A stretch of 64,000 nt of DNA, from the NCBI RefSeq assembly GCF_026011795.1, contig NZ_BRVS01000007.1:62001-126000 (forward strand). The letters are read 5' to 3'. Numbering within the stretch: position 1 is the stretch's first letter; every line of letters starts with the position of its first letter. Made by a program: the position numbers and the translations under genes. The DNA is from Arthrobacter mangrovi (GTDB lineage: Bacteria; Actinomycetota; Actinomycetes; Actinomycetales; Micrococcaceae). The notes beneath the pieces are model-generated. The model saw nothing but the letters and a program-made list of their open reading frames with translations, did no database searches and had not been told where the DNA came from. Below, one piece after another: positions 34,022 through 38,958 of the stretch.

Positions 34022-34035
34022 TTATTCGGCGTAAG

Positions 34036-34079
34036 GAAGCCGGTCGAGGGACGCAAGTCCCCCGGCCGGCTTCTTCGTT
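34036..34079 (+). terminator. Terminator after qcrB
   Basis: A 16-position stem (34036-34051 with 34058-34073; one G-U and one mismatch), 6-base loop, then TTCGTT. It ends the respiratory operon. Confidence 0.8.
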
Positions 34080-34820
34080 AATGCGCGCGGCTGGCCCAAA
34101 GGTGCACGGCGATCCATACAACATCGGACCAAGTCCGGACAACGACCAGCACCTGGACCCCCCCTTCGGCCAGATGACCTCGCACACCCGCTCCACCCCG
34201 GAGCGGTCAGACTTCGAACGCACCAGTGCCAGTAACACCACGTTCGTCCAGTGCCTCCCCAGCCTTTCCGGCAGCGGATCGAAGACTCGCTGCGGTCAGG
34301 GCCGCCGAACGTCGGTCCCGTCCTCGTTATCCCCGGACGGGACCGCAGCCAGCCCCGTCCGGTCCGGGTTCCGGGGACCAGGGTCAGCAACGCTGAGGTG
34401 GACGATCAGCGGCGCAGTCATCGGCCTTCGGACCTCCGCTTACTGTCGGCCCCGCGCAAGAGTGCCCCGGGGCCACCCAAACCTGTCAAAGCCACCCAAG
34501 CCCACCCATGAAATGGAACACCATATCCGTTGTGGAGGTCCCCGCTCCACTTCCTATGAGGCAAAGGCCCGAACTCGAGCTGCGCTTCTCAGTCCGCCCA
34601 CCCGGTCGACGCGCAGCCCAGTTTCGCAAGCTTCAATCTGCTCGCCGGCTCAAGGACGACACCCACGACTTCGTCGTCAGCATTTGGTCCGCCGAAGCGG
34701 ACGACCGGAACCGCGAAACGGCCGCGCCGGTAACACCACGGCAGCCACCCCGCCCTCGTGGTGACCGGCCCGAACCTTTTCAGAGTCCGCAACCCTCGGA
34801 CTCTGAAAAGATGTTCTACG
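34080..34820. other. 741-base gene-poor stretch with several inverted repeats
   Basis: No frame here looks like a gene I know on either strand. It holds a perfect 10-base inverted repeat GGTCCCGTCC/GGACGGGACC (34314-34323, 34335-34344) and a perfect 14-base one (34776-34789, 34797-34810) flanked by A/T on both sides, which may be a terminator for the minus-strand gene at 34821. Several overlapping open frames on both strands suggest eroded coding sequence. Confidence 0.45.
34776..34810 (-). terminator. Perfect 14-pair inverted repeat, likely end of the minus-strand island genes
   Basis: Stem 34776-34789 with 34797-34810, 7-base loop. The outer bases are CTTTT/AAAAG, so it could end transcription coming from the right. 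Confidence 0.55.
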
Positions 34821-35129
34821 TCAAAGCACTGGTAGGACGCTGAACTCGAGCCCTTCGATGATTCGTATTAGCCTCGGCTGATGGCGGAAGAAGGCGTAGA
34901 TCCCCATCAGGAGTAAGGGGCCGATCAGCATGACCACGGGCATGATCCGCTGCCCGAGGGAGATCATGTCTCCTGTTTGCCCGCCGGCAGGGGTTACGAA
35001 GGAGGCATAATGCATAGGGGAAAGCATGGCCGATCCGGCGGCGGCCGATTGCTCATCCGCGTCGGCCGCCGGAGCTGCTCCTTCGCTTCCGTTGGAAGGC
35101 TGAGTTCCCTGGCGAAGAATGTTCTCCAT
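34821..35129 (-). CDS. Small hypothetical membrane protein downstream of the carrier protein
   Basis: A frame of 102 residues from ATG 35129 (126 if it starts at ATG 35201). The N-terminal part is Ala/Ser/Glu-rich and probably disordered. The C-terminus has one membrane helix (RIMPVVMLIGPLLLMGIYAFF) and a short tail RHQPRLIRIIEGLEFSVLPVL. Codons have G or C at most third positions, which favours real coding. GCGGAGAG lies just before ATG 35129. It lies about 180-190 bases after the triple-carrier gene on the same strand. I do not recognise the family. Confidence 0.45.
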   Translation of the reverse strand: MENILRQGTQPSNGSEGAAPAADADEQSAAAGSAMLSPMHYASFVTPAGGQTGDMISLGQRIMPVVMLIGPLLLMGIYAFFRHQPRLIRIIEGLEFSVLPVL

Positions 35130-35311
35130 CTCTCCGCTCTCGCGCCAGGCTGGGAGCCAGCACTGTGGCGGTGCTCTGAATTTGCTGGGAAGCACATCCA
35201 TTTTCCCAGTCCTTCCTATCGTGGTCCGCTGCTACGTTGAAGGGGCTGCCAGGAGGGGCACGGTTTTGCTTTCACGGCGGTCGGGCACCGCCTGCGCCAG
35301 CCAGAGGTTCC

Positions 35312-38300
35312 TCATGAGGGAAGCCCTTCCAGTGCGAGAGGGGACGTGGCGGCGGTTGGGGCCTCTTCGGCCGGGTTGCCGCCCCAGAGGCTGCCCCGAG
35401 GGAGGGTCGTTCCCTTCATTACGAAGGAGTCCGTGGCGACAACGGCGCCGTCTTCGATGGTCACGCCGTAGTGGATGAAGGCTCCGACTCCGAGCGTAAC
35501 GTCGTTTCCGACGGCGTTGTAGTCGGATTTGAACATCCCGTCCTCTTGGGAATGGGACTGGATCGTGGTGCCGTTGTTCAGCGTGCAGCGGGAGCCAATC
35601 GTCACCAGGGTCCGCTCGATGATTCCGCAGCCGTCATCGAATACTCGGGAACCGATCCGGACGCCCAGCAGGCGCCACACCAGCGGTTTGAACGGTGTTC
35701 CGTTGAAGACCGTTGCGTATCGCTGCTGCATGGACATCTTCCAGTACCGCTCGTGGAACCAGAAGTAGGGGTTGTAGATGGAGCACAACTGGGGCCGGAG
35801 CCGCCGGAACCCTGTCGCGAGGCGCTCGATGCCGATCGGGACCAGCGAGCCAACTACGAGCGCCACGACGAAGCCCGCGCTGATAGACAGGAAGCCGAAC
35901 TGGTCGGAGAGTTCGAGGGCGGCGAACATCACCAGAATGGCGGCCGTGACATTGAACCACCGCACCAGCATCAAGAGGGCCATCGTGATCAGGTTGTGCC
36001 TGTTCTTGGCCGCCAGATCCCGGCGGAAGCGTTCAGGGTCCACATGCTCTTCGGGGAGGGCGTCCCGCAGCACGGATCGCGGAATCTCGAACGCCGGTGA
36101 TCCGAGCAGGCCCACGTCCTGCCGGACCGGTCCGTCGACGGGGACCATGACCTTGGTCGCGAGCAGGCAGTTGTCCCCGGTCCTGGCTTCGGCGGGGTAA
36201 AGCACGGCGTTGCCCAGGAAGTTATGAGCACCGATGGACACCCCACTGACCTTGAACGACGTCGCGGAGTAGTCCGTGTTCATGGCGGACAGCCCATCGG
36301 CGATCATCGTGCCGCTGCCGATGGTGGTCAGGTACGGGTTGTCATGCTTGAATCCCGTGCCGAAATTCGAACCGGTCTGTTGGACCTGCGGCTGGCGGTA
36401 CCCGAGCGCCTGCACGTAGTCCACGACGTAGGAGCTGTCGCCGAACAGGCCCCCGAGCATCGGGCTGTTGGTCATCTTGGCCACCGCCCGCGCGGCCGCG
36501 TCCCGCAGCCCGTACATCGGGTACACCGTGTCGGGCTTGACCGCGAGCTGGAGCAGCCGGGGCAGGGTCGTGATGAGGAGCAAGGCGATGACCGTTCCAC
36601 CGAAGACGCTCAGGGCGGCATACCCGGCGGCCTCGGCATAGAAAATCCAGTCGCCGAACGCCCACTCCTGCGACTCCATGAGCGCGGCGACGCTCGGGTT
36701 CGCCAGGACGAACAACGTGATTACCAGTCCCCACATCGTGCGGCCCAGCCCGAGAGTGCTGACGACCTGGGAGACGGCGAACCATCCCCTCCGCCAGGGC
36801 CGGTAGGGCGTCGGCTCGACCGTGGCGTAATCCGCAGCACCGGGCCTGCCCGGCGAACCATGCCACCGCTCGCCCGCAGGCACGGCCTGGCCGGCGTAGA
36901 GGGTGGAGCGGTGGCCCAACTGCGAGTGGTCACCCATCGACGTGTTAATGTCCAGGACGCTACCCTCGCCGATGATGACGTCTTTGCCCAGCTCGACCCC
37001 ACCCAACTGGATGACACCGCCGTGGGCGCGGTACCCGTTGAGCATGGCGTCCTTGCGGATCACCGTGCCCTCACCGATCGTCAGCAGGTCGGTGCAGACC
37101 GGCAGCCGGTTGGTCATAATTGTCACGTTGCGGCCGACTTTCGCACCCATGGCCCTCAGGTAGAAGGTCAACAGCGGCGAACCGGTCATCAGCGACAGCG
37201 GAGAGGTGCGCATCAGCGCTTTGACCAGCCAGAACCGGAAGTAGGCCAGACTCCAGATGCGGATCTCCTTGGGACGGAAGCGTCCAATGAAGATCCATTT
37301 GCCTGCTACCGGCAGAATGCATAGCAGCAGGAAGGTCGCAGCGGCATAGGCGATCGAGCGCAGGTAGATCTCGAAGAAGCTCTGGCCGTGGCCCAGCCAG
37401 TGGTGGTTGCCTGGCCCCGCTGCCGGGAACAACCACTGGTACCCCACGACCGCGATGAAGCCGCCGAGCACGCAATAGCCAAGATAGACGAGTACCTGCA
37501 GGGCGCCGCAGGCGAGATACTCCCACGTCCGCGCATCCATGAGCGGCGGCGTCTCCGGCACGGAGGCCACAGCCGGCGGCGGCCCGGTCACCTCATCCTG
37601 CATTTCGGATACCTGCAGGGCCGCTGCCAGGGCGGAGATATTGGGGTTGCTGTAGATCTCTTTCATGGACACGGCCGGTAGATCCGGCTGCTTGCGCACC
37701 CGGGCGCAGAACTTGGCCATTACCAACGAGTCGGCTCCCAGTTCCTGAAAGAAATCTGCGCCCGCCGGCACATGGTCAACACCCAGGACACCGGCCAGCA
37801 CCTCAGCCAGCCTGTCCCCCACCGGTGACGTCGCCGACGACTTCTCCGCCGGGGCCAGGGCCGCCGCCAGCGACGCGATCGTCGGATGCTGGTAGATGTC
37901 CTTAATCGACACCTGCGGCAGATCCGGCTGCTTGCGCACACGGGCGCAGAACTTGGCCATCACCAACGAGTCGGCTCCCAGTTCCTGAAAGAAATCTGCA
38001 CCCACCGGCACATGGTCAACACCCAGGACACCGGCCATCACCTCAGCCAGCCGTTCCCCCACCGGTGACGCCGCCGACGATTTCTCCGCCGGAGCCAGGG
38101 CCGCCGCCAGCGACGCGATCGTCGGATGCTGGTAGATGTCCTTAATCGACACCTGCGGCAGATCCGGCTGCTTGCGCACACGGGCGCAGAACTGCGCCAT
38201 AACGAGCGAGTCCGCACCCAGATCCTGGAAGAAGTTGGCGTCCACGGGGACTTCGTCCTTCTTCACGGTCGATGCGAGCAAACCCGCCAAGCGGCCTTCC

Positions 38301-38428
38301 AAGGCCCTGCCCGGTTCCCTTGCCGGCGCAGCTGCAAAACCGTTTTCGGCCGGAACCGCGGGAACCGGGGGACTCGTCGAGATTGTGGCACGCGGAGCCG
38401 TTTGCATGTCATCGATGAGCTTTTTCAC
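35312..38428 (-). CDS. Pls-like membrane synthetase with three tandem carrier domains and no adenylation domain
   Basis: A 1038-residue protein. Residues 1-40 are a Pro/Ala-rich leader. Three carrier (T/ACP) domains follow with exact 80-residue period; each has GADSL with the phosphopantetheine serine at 74, 154 and 234. From about 300 on, the protein matches the C-terminal half of epsilon-poly-lysine synthetase (Pls/PosA): helix pairs near 305-330/355-382, 558-582/600-625 and 815-840/845-868 alternate with three left-handed beta-helix acyltransferase-like domains (about 425-525, 650-785, 915-1015). Pls has an adenylation domain first and one carrier; here the adenylation domain is absent. 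GTG start with AAGGAG 9 bases upstream. Amino-acid loading would need a separate enzyme. Confidence 0.88.
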   Translation of the reverse strand: MKKLIDDMQTAPRATISTSPPVPAVPAENGFAAAPAREPGRALEGRLAGLLASTVKKDEVPVDANFFQDLGADSLVMAQFCARVRKQPDLPQVSIKDIYQHPTIASLAAALAPAEKSSAASPVGERLAEVMAGVLGVDHVPVGADFFQELGADSLVMAKFCARVRKQPDLPQVSIKDIYQHPTIASLAAALAPAEKSSATSPVGDRLAEVLAGVLGVDHVPAGADFFQELGADSLVMAKFCARVRKQPDLPAVSMKEIYSNPNISALAAALQVSEMQDEVTGPPPAVASVPETPPLMDARTWEYLACGALQVLVYLGYCVLGGFIAVVGYQWLFPAAGPGNHHWLGHGQSFFEIYLRSIAYAAATFLLLCILPVAGKWIFIGRFRPKEIRIWSLAYFRFWLVKALMRTSPLSLMTGSPLLTFYLRAMGAKVGRNVTIMTNRLPVCTDLLTIGEGTVIRKDAMLNGYRAHGGVIQLGGVELGKDVIIGEGSVLDINTSMGDHSQLGHRSTLYAGQAVPAGERWHGSPGRPGAADYATVEPTPYRPWRRGWFAVSQVVSTLGLGRTMWGLVITLFVLANPSVAALMESQEWAFGDWIFYAEAAGYAALSVFGGTVIALLLITTLPRLLQLAVKPDTVYPMYGLRDAAARAVAKMTNSPMLGGLFGDSSYVVDYVQALGYRQPQVQQTGSNFGTGFKHDNPYLTTIGSGTMIADGLSAMNTDYSATSFKVSGVSIGAHNFLGNAVLYPAEARTGDNCLLATKVMVPVDGPVRQDVGLLGSPAFEIPRSVLRDALPEEHVDPERFRRDLAAKNRHNLITMALLMLVRWFNVTAAILVMFAALELSDQFGFLSISAGFVVALVVGSLVPIGIERLATGFRRLRPQLCSIYNPYFWFHERYWKMSMQQRYATVFNGTPFKPLVWRLLGVRIGSRVFDDGCGIIERTLVTIGSRCTLNNGTTIQSHSQEDGMFKSDYNAVGNDVTLGVGAFIHYGVTIEDGAVVATDSFVMKGTTLPRGSLWGGNPAEEAPTAATSPLALEGLPS
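37681..38193 (-). repeat. Tandem 240-base repeat encoding carrier domains
   Basis: 37681-37920 and 37921-38160 differ at 10 of 240 positions by my count, and the identity with the next unit runs on into 38161-38193. The period is exactly 80 codons. The outer edges of the first and third carrier domains are more diverged, which points to recent duplication or gene conversion of the central part. Confidence 0.9.
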
Positions 38429-38958
38429 TGCACAAAACTCCTTAGTGACGCCGGATCGGATTTGTGAGCAACGCTTTCTCCCTAGTGAGTCTTGACGTGC
38501 AGGTTCGCTTGGCGGGAGGCCTGGCCCGGACCTTTGGGCCCGGTCAGAAGCGTCTGGAATCGGCTCCGTCGGGTGGTAGTCAGCTCCCGCTGATCACGAC
38601 CGCTCACATGATGGACGACGCATCTTGTAAAAAAGTCGGATTCCCGAGCCGAAGGCGCTGACTGAGCGCGGCTGTGTGTCGGGGGCCTAGTGCCTCAGCA
38701 GGAGGACGAGACAGTTTTGGGCCGGCGGGGTCGGCCACACACCCGAACAAGCGGCGGAAGGCCACGCCCGTACTGGGCGTGGCCTTCCTTGGTTCCCCTC
38801 GGCAAAGAAGAAACCTGTGCCGGCTGACGTCGTTCCAGCCGGCGGCTCTGGATCGGTGATCATATGTACCGGGAAGCCTGGTTCAGCGCGTCCTTCGATT
38901 GCCGGATGGACCTTCGTGGGGGATTCCAGGAACGTCCCTCAACCCGCCTCTACGAGCA
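38429..38958. other. 530-base intergenic region between the carrier gene and the GntR gene
   Basis: Holds the upstream region of the carrier-protein gene and the 3' side of the GntR gene. Besides the hairpin at 38756-38788 there is a second stem GCCGGCTG/CAGCCGGC (38819-38826, 38836-38843). I see no convincing gene. Confidence 0.5.
38756..38788. terminator. GC-rich hairpin, probable terminator
   Basis: A perfect 14-base-pair stem (38756-38769 with 38775-38788), 5-base loop, followed on the plus strand by TTGGTTCC. It could end the minus-strand GntR transcript before the carrier gene. Confidence 0.55.

Follow-up and report, generated by a model that had tools for sequence, protein, structure and literature searches.

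A Pls/PosA-type protein without an adenylation domain in Arthrobacter mangrovi, a probable half of a split synthetase

Pls (epsilon-poly-L-lysine synthetase) and PosA (delta-poly-L-ornithine synthetase) are single chains in which an activating half is joined to a polymerising half, and for this reason polymerisation is difficult to study on its own. How, then, is a protein supplied that has the polymerising half without the activating one? The question is raised by a gene of Arthrobacter mangrovi in the 64,000-nucleotide stretch of DNA analysed here (the window; G000:C7:62001-126000), part of an assembly of 4.43 Mb in 52 contigs. The gene occupies 35312..38428 on the minus strand and encodes 1038 residues; we call it plsC, a label used here for Pls/PosA-type genes lacking an adenylation (A) domain. 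Our analysis makes it probable that the product supplies the carriers and the condensation part of a split Pls-type synthetase and is loaded in trans by an A protein that is encoded in an operon on another contig (C2). The general idea of supply in trans appears well supported by the comparison of related loci.

Domain content of the window protein

Window plsC is placed in its family by the membrane part. The NCBIfam model TIGR02353, 'Pls/PosA family NRPS' (nonribosomal peptide synthetase), matches residues 306-1020 (35369..37513, minus strand) over its whole length (positions 1-695 of 695) with 668.4 bits against a cut-off of 423.1, bearing out an earlier note on this DNA that had described a Pls-like membrane part. 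In the known architecture an A domain is followed by a carrier and then by C1-C3 with six membrane helices (PMC8117764; this and the other PMC-numbered sources are drawn on in excerpt). The window protein shares with Pls and PosA the whole C-terminal membrane part with a carrier directly before it. It differs from them in two defining traits, as the fused N-terminal A domain is absent and three carriers stand in place of one. Its hydrophobic stretches fall into three groups (residues 303-384, 558-631 and 813-873), and among the soluble domains the first has clear similarity to the third (E 1.8e-8) and weak similarity to the second (E 0.001); between the second and third there is a chance-level match only (E 1.0). 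Hydropathy and this partial internal similarity agree with a C1-C2-C3 plan for the putative membrane condensation part, the assignment of which also draws on the family model and on invariant residues. The structure model of the membrane half, made from a shallow alignment of two rows, had a predicted local distance difference test score (pLDDT) of 31, too low to establish a fold.

A Pfam hexapeptide-repeat match lies near the C-terminus and is significant in the third soluble domain only; the beta-helix fold that the earlier note had given to all three domains was not confirmed. A last domain like hexapeptide-repeat acyltransferases, together with carriers and a membrane part, would suit a D-alanylation-like modification of a surface polymer in place of oligomer synthesis; surface-polymer modification is among the options of the earlier note. 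We consider this very unlikely. The nearest characterised relatives produce free polymers (PMC4668381, PMC10522769), and no cell-wall polymer genes were recognised among the shared neighbours, an argument weakened by the mostly by-eye annotation of these genes; nothing in this analysis supported such a role.

Ahead of the membrane part lie three carriers, found by Pfam PP-binding (three stretches, 1.1e-34) and by a carrier hidden Markov model: carrier 1 at residues 45-112 (38093..38296), carrier 2 at residues 125-192 (37853..38056) and carrier 3 at residues 205-272 (37613..37816), all on the minus strand. Their GADSL motifs begin at residues 71, 151 and 231, which puts the serines at residues 74, 154 and 234, where the earlier note had them. 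In the DNA the carriers form a 240-nt tandem repeat whose copies have 87% and 64% identity to the reference; pairwise identity is 85% for carriers 2 and 3, 79% for 1 and 2 and 68% for 1 and 3. A model of carrier 2, built on the three window carriers aligned with one of locus L019, had a mean pLDDT of 84, and its top PDB matches were carrier proteins, those of NRPSs first. The translation start directly before the carriers is likewise as described, a GTG with the ribosome binding site AAGGAG nine nucleotides upstream (38438..38443, minus strand). By analogy with Pls, PDAP (poly(diaminopropionic acid)) synthetase and PosA (PMC4668381, PMC10522769), the carriers would present activated units to the bond-forming membrane part.

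Could an A domain have been present and lost? Pfam AMP-binding has no match in plsC, the operon A protein has none at E <= 1e-15 in the 20 kb around it, and the stop-to-stop frame of 1093 residues leaves room for at most 55 more, in accord with the absence of an A domain noted before. Among the relatives compared with at least 67% membrane-part identity, none has an A domain before the carriers as far as the contigs show, the check being limited by three loci (L019, L052 and L083) and by copies with runs of N that are cut at the carrier end. A-fused members were met at about 47% membrane-part identity or below, and a class-level match with a long frame, G415, is 49% identical to the plsC membrane part. 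As the close relatives compared show no fused A domain and the 20-kb locus has no A match at E <= 1e-15, a sequence error or a lost A domain, the alternative raised in the earlier note, was ruled out; on these comparisons window plsC is not a broken fused enzyme.

The operon and the lone copies

The genome encodes five proteins above the Pls/PosA cut-off, two of them A-fused (contigs C3 and C13) and three A-less (the window copy, C28 and C2). The C3 protein is an A-fused Pls of about 1290 residues encoded beside an M1 peptidase and a phosphopantetheinyl transferase (L022:8251-14271); the genome has two candidates for the latter enzyme, and the one next to C3 may serve the carriers of window plsC. 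The C13 protein, of up to 1370 residues, is encoded beside a dihydrodipicolinate-synthase-like gene. Among the A-less proteins, C28 has 891 residues and one carrier, and C2 has 1039 residues and three.

On contig C2, plsC is part of an operon on one strand in the order sbnA, plsC, A, tauD, sbnB and a luxE-like gene, the first five of which overlap by 4 bases each. The A protein, of 851 residues, combines an AMP-binding domain (275.6 bits) with its own PP-binding domain, an adenylation-carrier (A-T) arrangement, and both SbnA (TIGR03945, 397 bits, cut-off 350) and SbnB (TIGR03944, 413 bits, cut-off 327) exceed their family thresholds. When the six genes were compared by tblastn with 45 large loci, an A-T gene directly followed an A-less plsC on the same strand in 31; four others hold an A-fused Pls (L022, L023, L061 and L062) and ten are without the operon A gene. 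The counts rest on tblastn because gene calling was unreliable here, miscalling the A gene in many loci and missing plsC in L103 and L115, which were left out of carrier counts, tree and residue counts. The 31 operon loci contain tauD (30), sbnB (29) and sbnA (27), the misses being cuts at contig ends; L019, the one operon locus without tauD, ends within the A gene. The earlier note had postulated that substrate comes from a separate ligase and had proposed a search for linked stand-alone adenylation enzymes, and the A-T protein encoded next to plsC in these 31 loci is a candidate for that role.

The last position of the operon varies. A luxE-like match occurs in most own-family loci, L081 and L082 excepted, and the loci from class-level families have none; at L020:6571-7692 the operon of the own family ends in a gene for a LuxE-type acyl-protein synthetase. 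In the class-level loci A is followed by tauD and sbnB, with sbnA at the end or divergent (L111 is cut). Operon neighbours otherwise differ between loci. One cluster of neighbour genes, an M28 peptidase in the tested member L051, is represented close to plsC or to the operon at six loci of the own family; the L051 gene (1291-2427) is lipoprotein-like, adjoins the operon and possibly encodes a product-degrading enzyme. A peptidase gene has also been described beside pls (PMC8117764). In one genome of family f26 the operon adjoins a CbiM-type cobalt uptake gene (L112:8847-14440), and L115 has members of the neighbour clusters found at L112.

The distributions of plsC and the A protein coincide. 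A-less relatives were present in all ten genomes of the genus search. In the family search plsC matched in 19 of 395 genomes at E <= 1e-250 and the A protein in the identical 19 at E <= 1e-200, ten from the own genus and nine from four other genera. The class search gave plsC matches in 16 of 394 genomes (E <= 1e-200), two of which (G415 and G781) have long frames and are probably A-fused, and the phylum search in 5 of 396. These samples overlap, and outside the genus at most two candidates were scored per genome, which undercounts further copies. The number of carriers varies: among 23 uncut A-less copies of the own family (those cut by a contig end, L019, L052 and L083, or with N runs are omitted), one has a single carrier, four have two, fourteen three and four four. 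All ten f26 copies have one carrier; of the f20 copies, one has two and the other, which is cut, at least two.

At the window copy the A-T gene that directly follows the C2 paralogue is absent, and the operon genes other than plsC have no tblastn match in the 20-kb locus, so that the copy stands alone. Defined as having no A match in the 20-kb locus and not lying at a contig end, lone copies number seven in six genomes (window, C28, L056, L058, L060, L078 and L109), and all six genomes also hold the operon (L020, L049, L050, L051, L077 and L110). Two copies at contig ends beside sbnA-like sequence, L080 and L116, are labelled lone in the tree and were not counted as such. The neighbours of lone copies are unlike one another. 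C28 (L021:10502-17293) lies some 50 bp upstream of two FecCD permease genes, followed by genes for an ABC ATPase and a siderophore-interacting protein, a siderophore uptake setting that hints at a metal-related product.

In a tree of 41 membrane parts, which has long branches and nine open forks and leaves undecided whether split or fused forms came first, the window copy is sister to the operonic copy of genome G009 (support 99/94), in a clade with the operonic copies of G005, G008 and G091 (100/100). The operonic copy of its own genome clusters with lone copies from G005, G008 and G009 (100/100). Along this operonic plsC, about the first 90 residues are closest to the G009 operonic copy, after which it is mostly like the G005 lone copy and, further on, the G008 lone copy, with a stretch near residues 301-360 closest to C28. 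Window plsC is mostly closest to the G009 operonic copy and, near residues 841-960, equally or more like C28. Identity between the own and G009 operons is 0.85-0.91 in sbnA, 0.72-0.83 in the Pls gene except for one interval at 0.88, while the A gene starts at 0.68-0.76 and the values from there on are 0.80-0.94. On the simplest reading, recombination would have placed a lone-type body in the operon and left the operonic type at the lone site; the extension of the exchange tract into the A gene is not accounted for by a lone donor. That the two kinds swapped places fits their interchangeable use with one A protein.

Loading, substrate and competing readings

How might the parts work together? 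The A-T protein of the C2 operon would activate an amino acid and load it in trans onto the phosphopantetheine arms of plsC. The membrane part would couple units held on the carriers to an acceptor, either free or growing, and deliver a short polymer, as in Pls and PosA, while the tandem carriers might keep multiple loaded units close to one active site. The window copy would then be an extra, relocated condensation half using the A protein of the operon, and it may make a homo-oligomer.

The nature of the loaded unit is less straightforward. The presence of SbnA and SbnB suggests that 2,3-diaminopropionate serves as a precursor. The pocket code of the A protein, on the position mapping assumed here, is DIWQSTADDK in all 31 operonic A proteins, and a literature search for this code gave no match. 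Every cationic homopolymer synthetase known so far has the conserved Glu at pocket position 3, and in other NRPS A domains the side-chain amine can be bound from a different position (PMC10522769). The pocket of the separate A protein lacks this Glu, a further difference from Pls and PosA, so that its unit may be something other than a usual diamino acid and the product something other than a cationic homopolymer. Two loci of the same genus, L061 and L062, encode A-fused Pls-type proteins of about 1410-1430 residues with the pocket code DFECLSVVTK. Phe at position 2 has been reported for PDAP and poly(diaminobutyric acid) (PDAB) synthetases (PMC10522769) and is present in these two proteins as well. 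A gene near the A-fused gene of L062 was judged by eye to be aminotransferase-like.

The A protein's own carrier and TauD could permit modification of the amino acid before transfer, as with SyrB1. SyrB2 is an iron/2-oxoglutarate enzyme. SyrB1 itself is a stand-alone A-T protein; its carrier holds the amino acid during modification, after which the amino acid is handed on to a different carrier (PMC8949500). This precedent, the tauD-family gene directly after an A gene with its own carrier domain, and a pocket code that is invariant and not of the Pls/PosA type would all suit a two-step line, in which TauD modifies the amino acid on the A-T protein and the unit is then either passed to the plsC carriers or condensed with 2,3-diaminopropionate from SbnA and SbnB, yielding a mixed or branched oligomer. 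We regard this route as less likely, though worth keeping in view.

Several points weigh against direct loading of the window copy by the operon A protein. Window plsC lies apart from the operon, and a promoter scan turned up nothing like a sigma-70 promoter for it. The A protein, having a carrier of its own, might load only that carrier, and on the assumed mapping it has Trp instead of Glu at position 3. Its co-occurrence with plsC arises in part from gene adjacency and shared descent. A-less forms with a single carrier exist, and therefore three carriers are not required. With G007 as outgroup, the window copy has 281 changes against 137 in its operonic sister, about twofold, and two recent pairs elsewhere have ratios of nonsynonymous to synonymous substitution rates (dN/dS) of 0.623 and 0.442, indicating weaker constraint.

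Might the window copy then be a selfish or decaying duplicate without a current role? Its excess of changes, the longer branch (0.087 against 0.047 for the operonic sister), its solitary position at a new site and the unlike neighbours of lone copies would all fit such a fate, which nonetheless seems improbable. The reading frame is intact, and the three carrier serines and the ribosome binding site are retained, as is a leader common to other lone copies (38429..38486, minus strand; a 58-nt match, 83% identical to the G009 lone copy). This leader is recognisable in the G005 and G008 lone copies too and not evident upstream of the lone copies C28, G189 and G575. Comparing the window copy with the G009 operonic copy gives a dN/dS of 0.233, while the G009 and G005 operonic copies give 0.294, and codon positions 1 and 2 take similar shares of the changes in the window copy and its sister (43% and 45%). 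The 29 operonic rows share 140 invariant columns, of which 139 are retained in the window copy and 138-140 in the other six lone copies. Judged by these measures, window plsC is under purifying selection.

We favour loading in trans of window plsC as a working condensation half. A broader proposal, which we put forward tentatively and with less confidence, is that these proteins form a class of split Pls-type polymerases with one to four carriers, fed in trans by an A-T protein with a pocket fixed across three actinobacterial families. They would make a diaminopropionate-derived, TauD-modified oligomer outside the known poly(diamino acids); lone copies would share the feed, and carrier number and copies would tune chain length or output. 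The siderophore uptake genes next to C28 hint that such a product might bind metal.

The site of the window copy and its relation to known systems

The window copy lies in extra DNA between qcrB and gntR (34022..38958). The gap between these genes is 4.9 kb in the window against roughly 130-460 bp between match ends in all nine other genomes of the genus. Because qcrB, gntR and ctaF adjoin one another in all nine, gntR belongs to the old locus. The earlier note had placed plsC in an island with this GntR regulator, a grouping that does not hold: the cytochrome locus has gntR among its core genes, and gntR was ruled out as a partner regulator of plsC. Downstream of plsC, an open reading frame of 126 residues with one hydrophobic stretch (34821..35201, minus strand) has no relative in any locus compared and no Pfam or NCBIfam match, and may be spurious. 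Past it lies a perfect 14-bp inverted repeat (34776..34810), which is not among the terminators found by a terminator scan. A repeat search around the insert gave nothing convincing as a mobile element or target duplication.

Three kinds of characterised system share features with the arrangement described here. The PDAP synthetase of Streptomyces albulus PD-1 has the membrane part in common, as well as a link to diaminopropionate through cysteine-synthase-like and ornithine-cyclodeaminase-like enzymes; a gene of 4,338 bp encodes it as a single protein that includes an A domain and one carrier (PMC4668381). In the excerpt of that paper the two enzymes are encoded by an adjacent gene pair that is not placed in the synthetase operon, and with these two enzymes the substrates of SbnA and SbnB gave no diaminopropionate. 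Here, in contrast, sbnA, sbnB, plsC, a separate A-T protein and TauD are encoded in a single operon. SyrB1 and Alb04 (PMC8949500) resemble the present case in that the A-T protein is separate from the condensing enzyme and a tailoring enzyme gene is nearby, whereas here the units would be accepted by the carrier array of a Pls-type membrane enzyme in place of a modular NRPS with a condensation domain. Streptothricin ORF19 is, like the operon A protein, a stand-alone adenylating enzyme for an amino-acid oligomer; it forms amide bonds itself (PMC9606270), whereas here a Pls-type condensation part is present. In a full-text literature search, which left most subscription journals outside its coverage and is no proof of novelty, we recognised among the papers listed no description of a Pls-type protein that lacks an A domain, has multiple carriers or is served in trans.

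In these bacteria the halves that are joined in Pls and PosA appear as separate proteins, with additional carriers and with a polymerase that is used again on its own. The operon predicts a product that draws on 2,3-diaminopropionate. Such a split would permit the mixing of A proteins and polymerases in vitro and tests of how chain length is set, and it would permit mining for polymers that searches for fused adenylation-carrier-condensation enzymes overlook.

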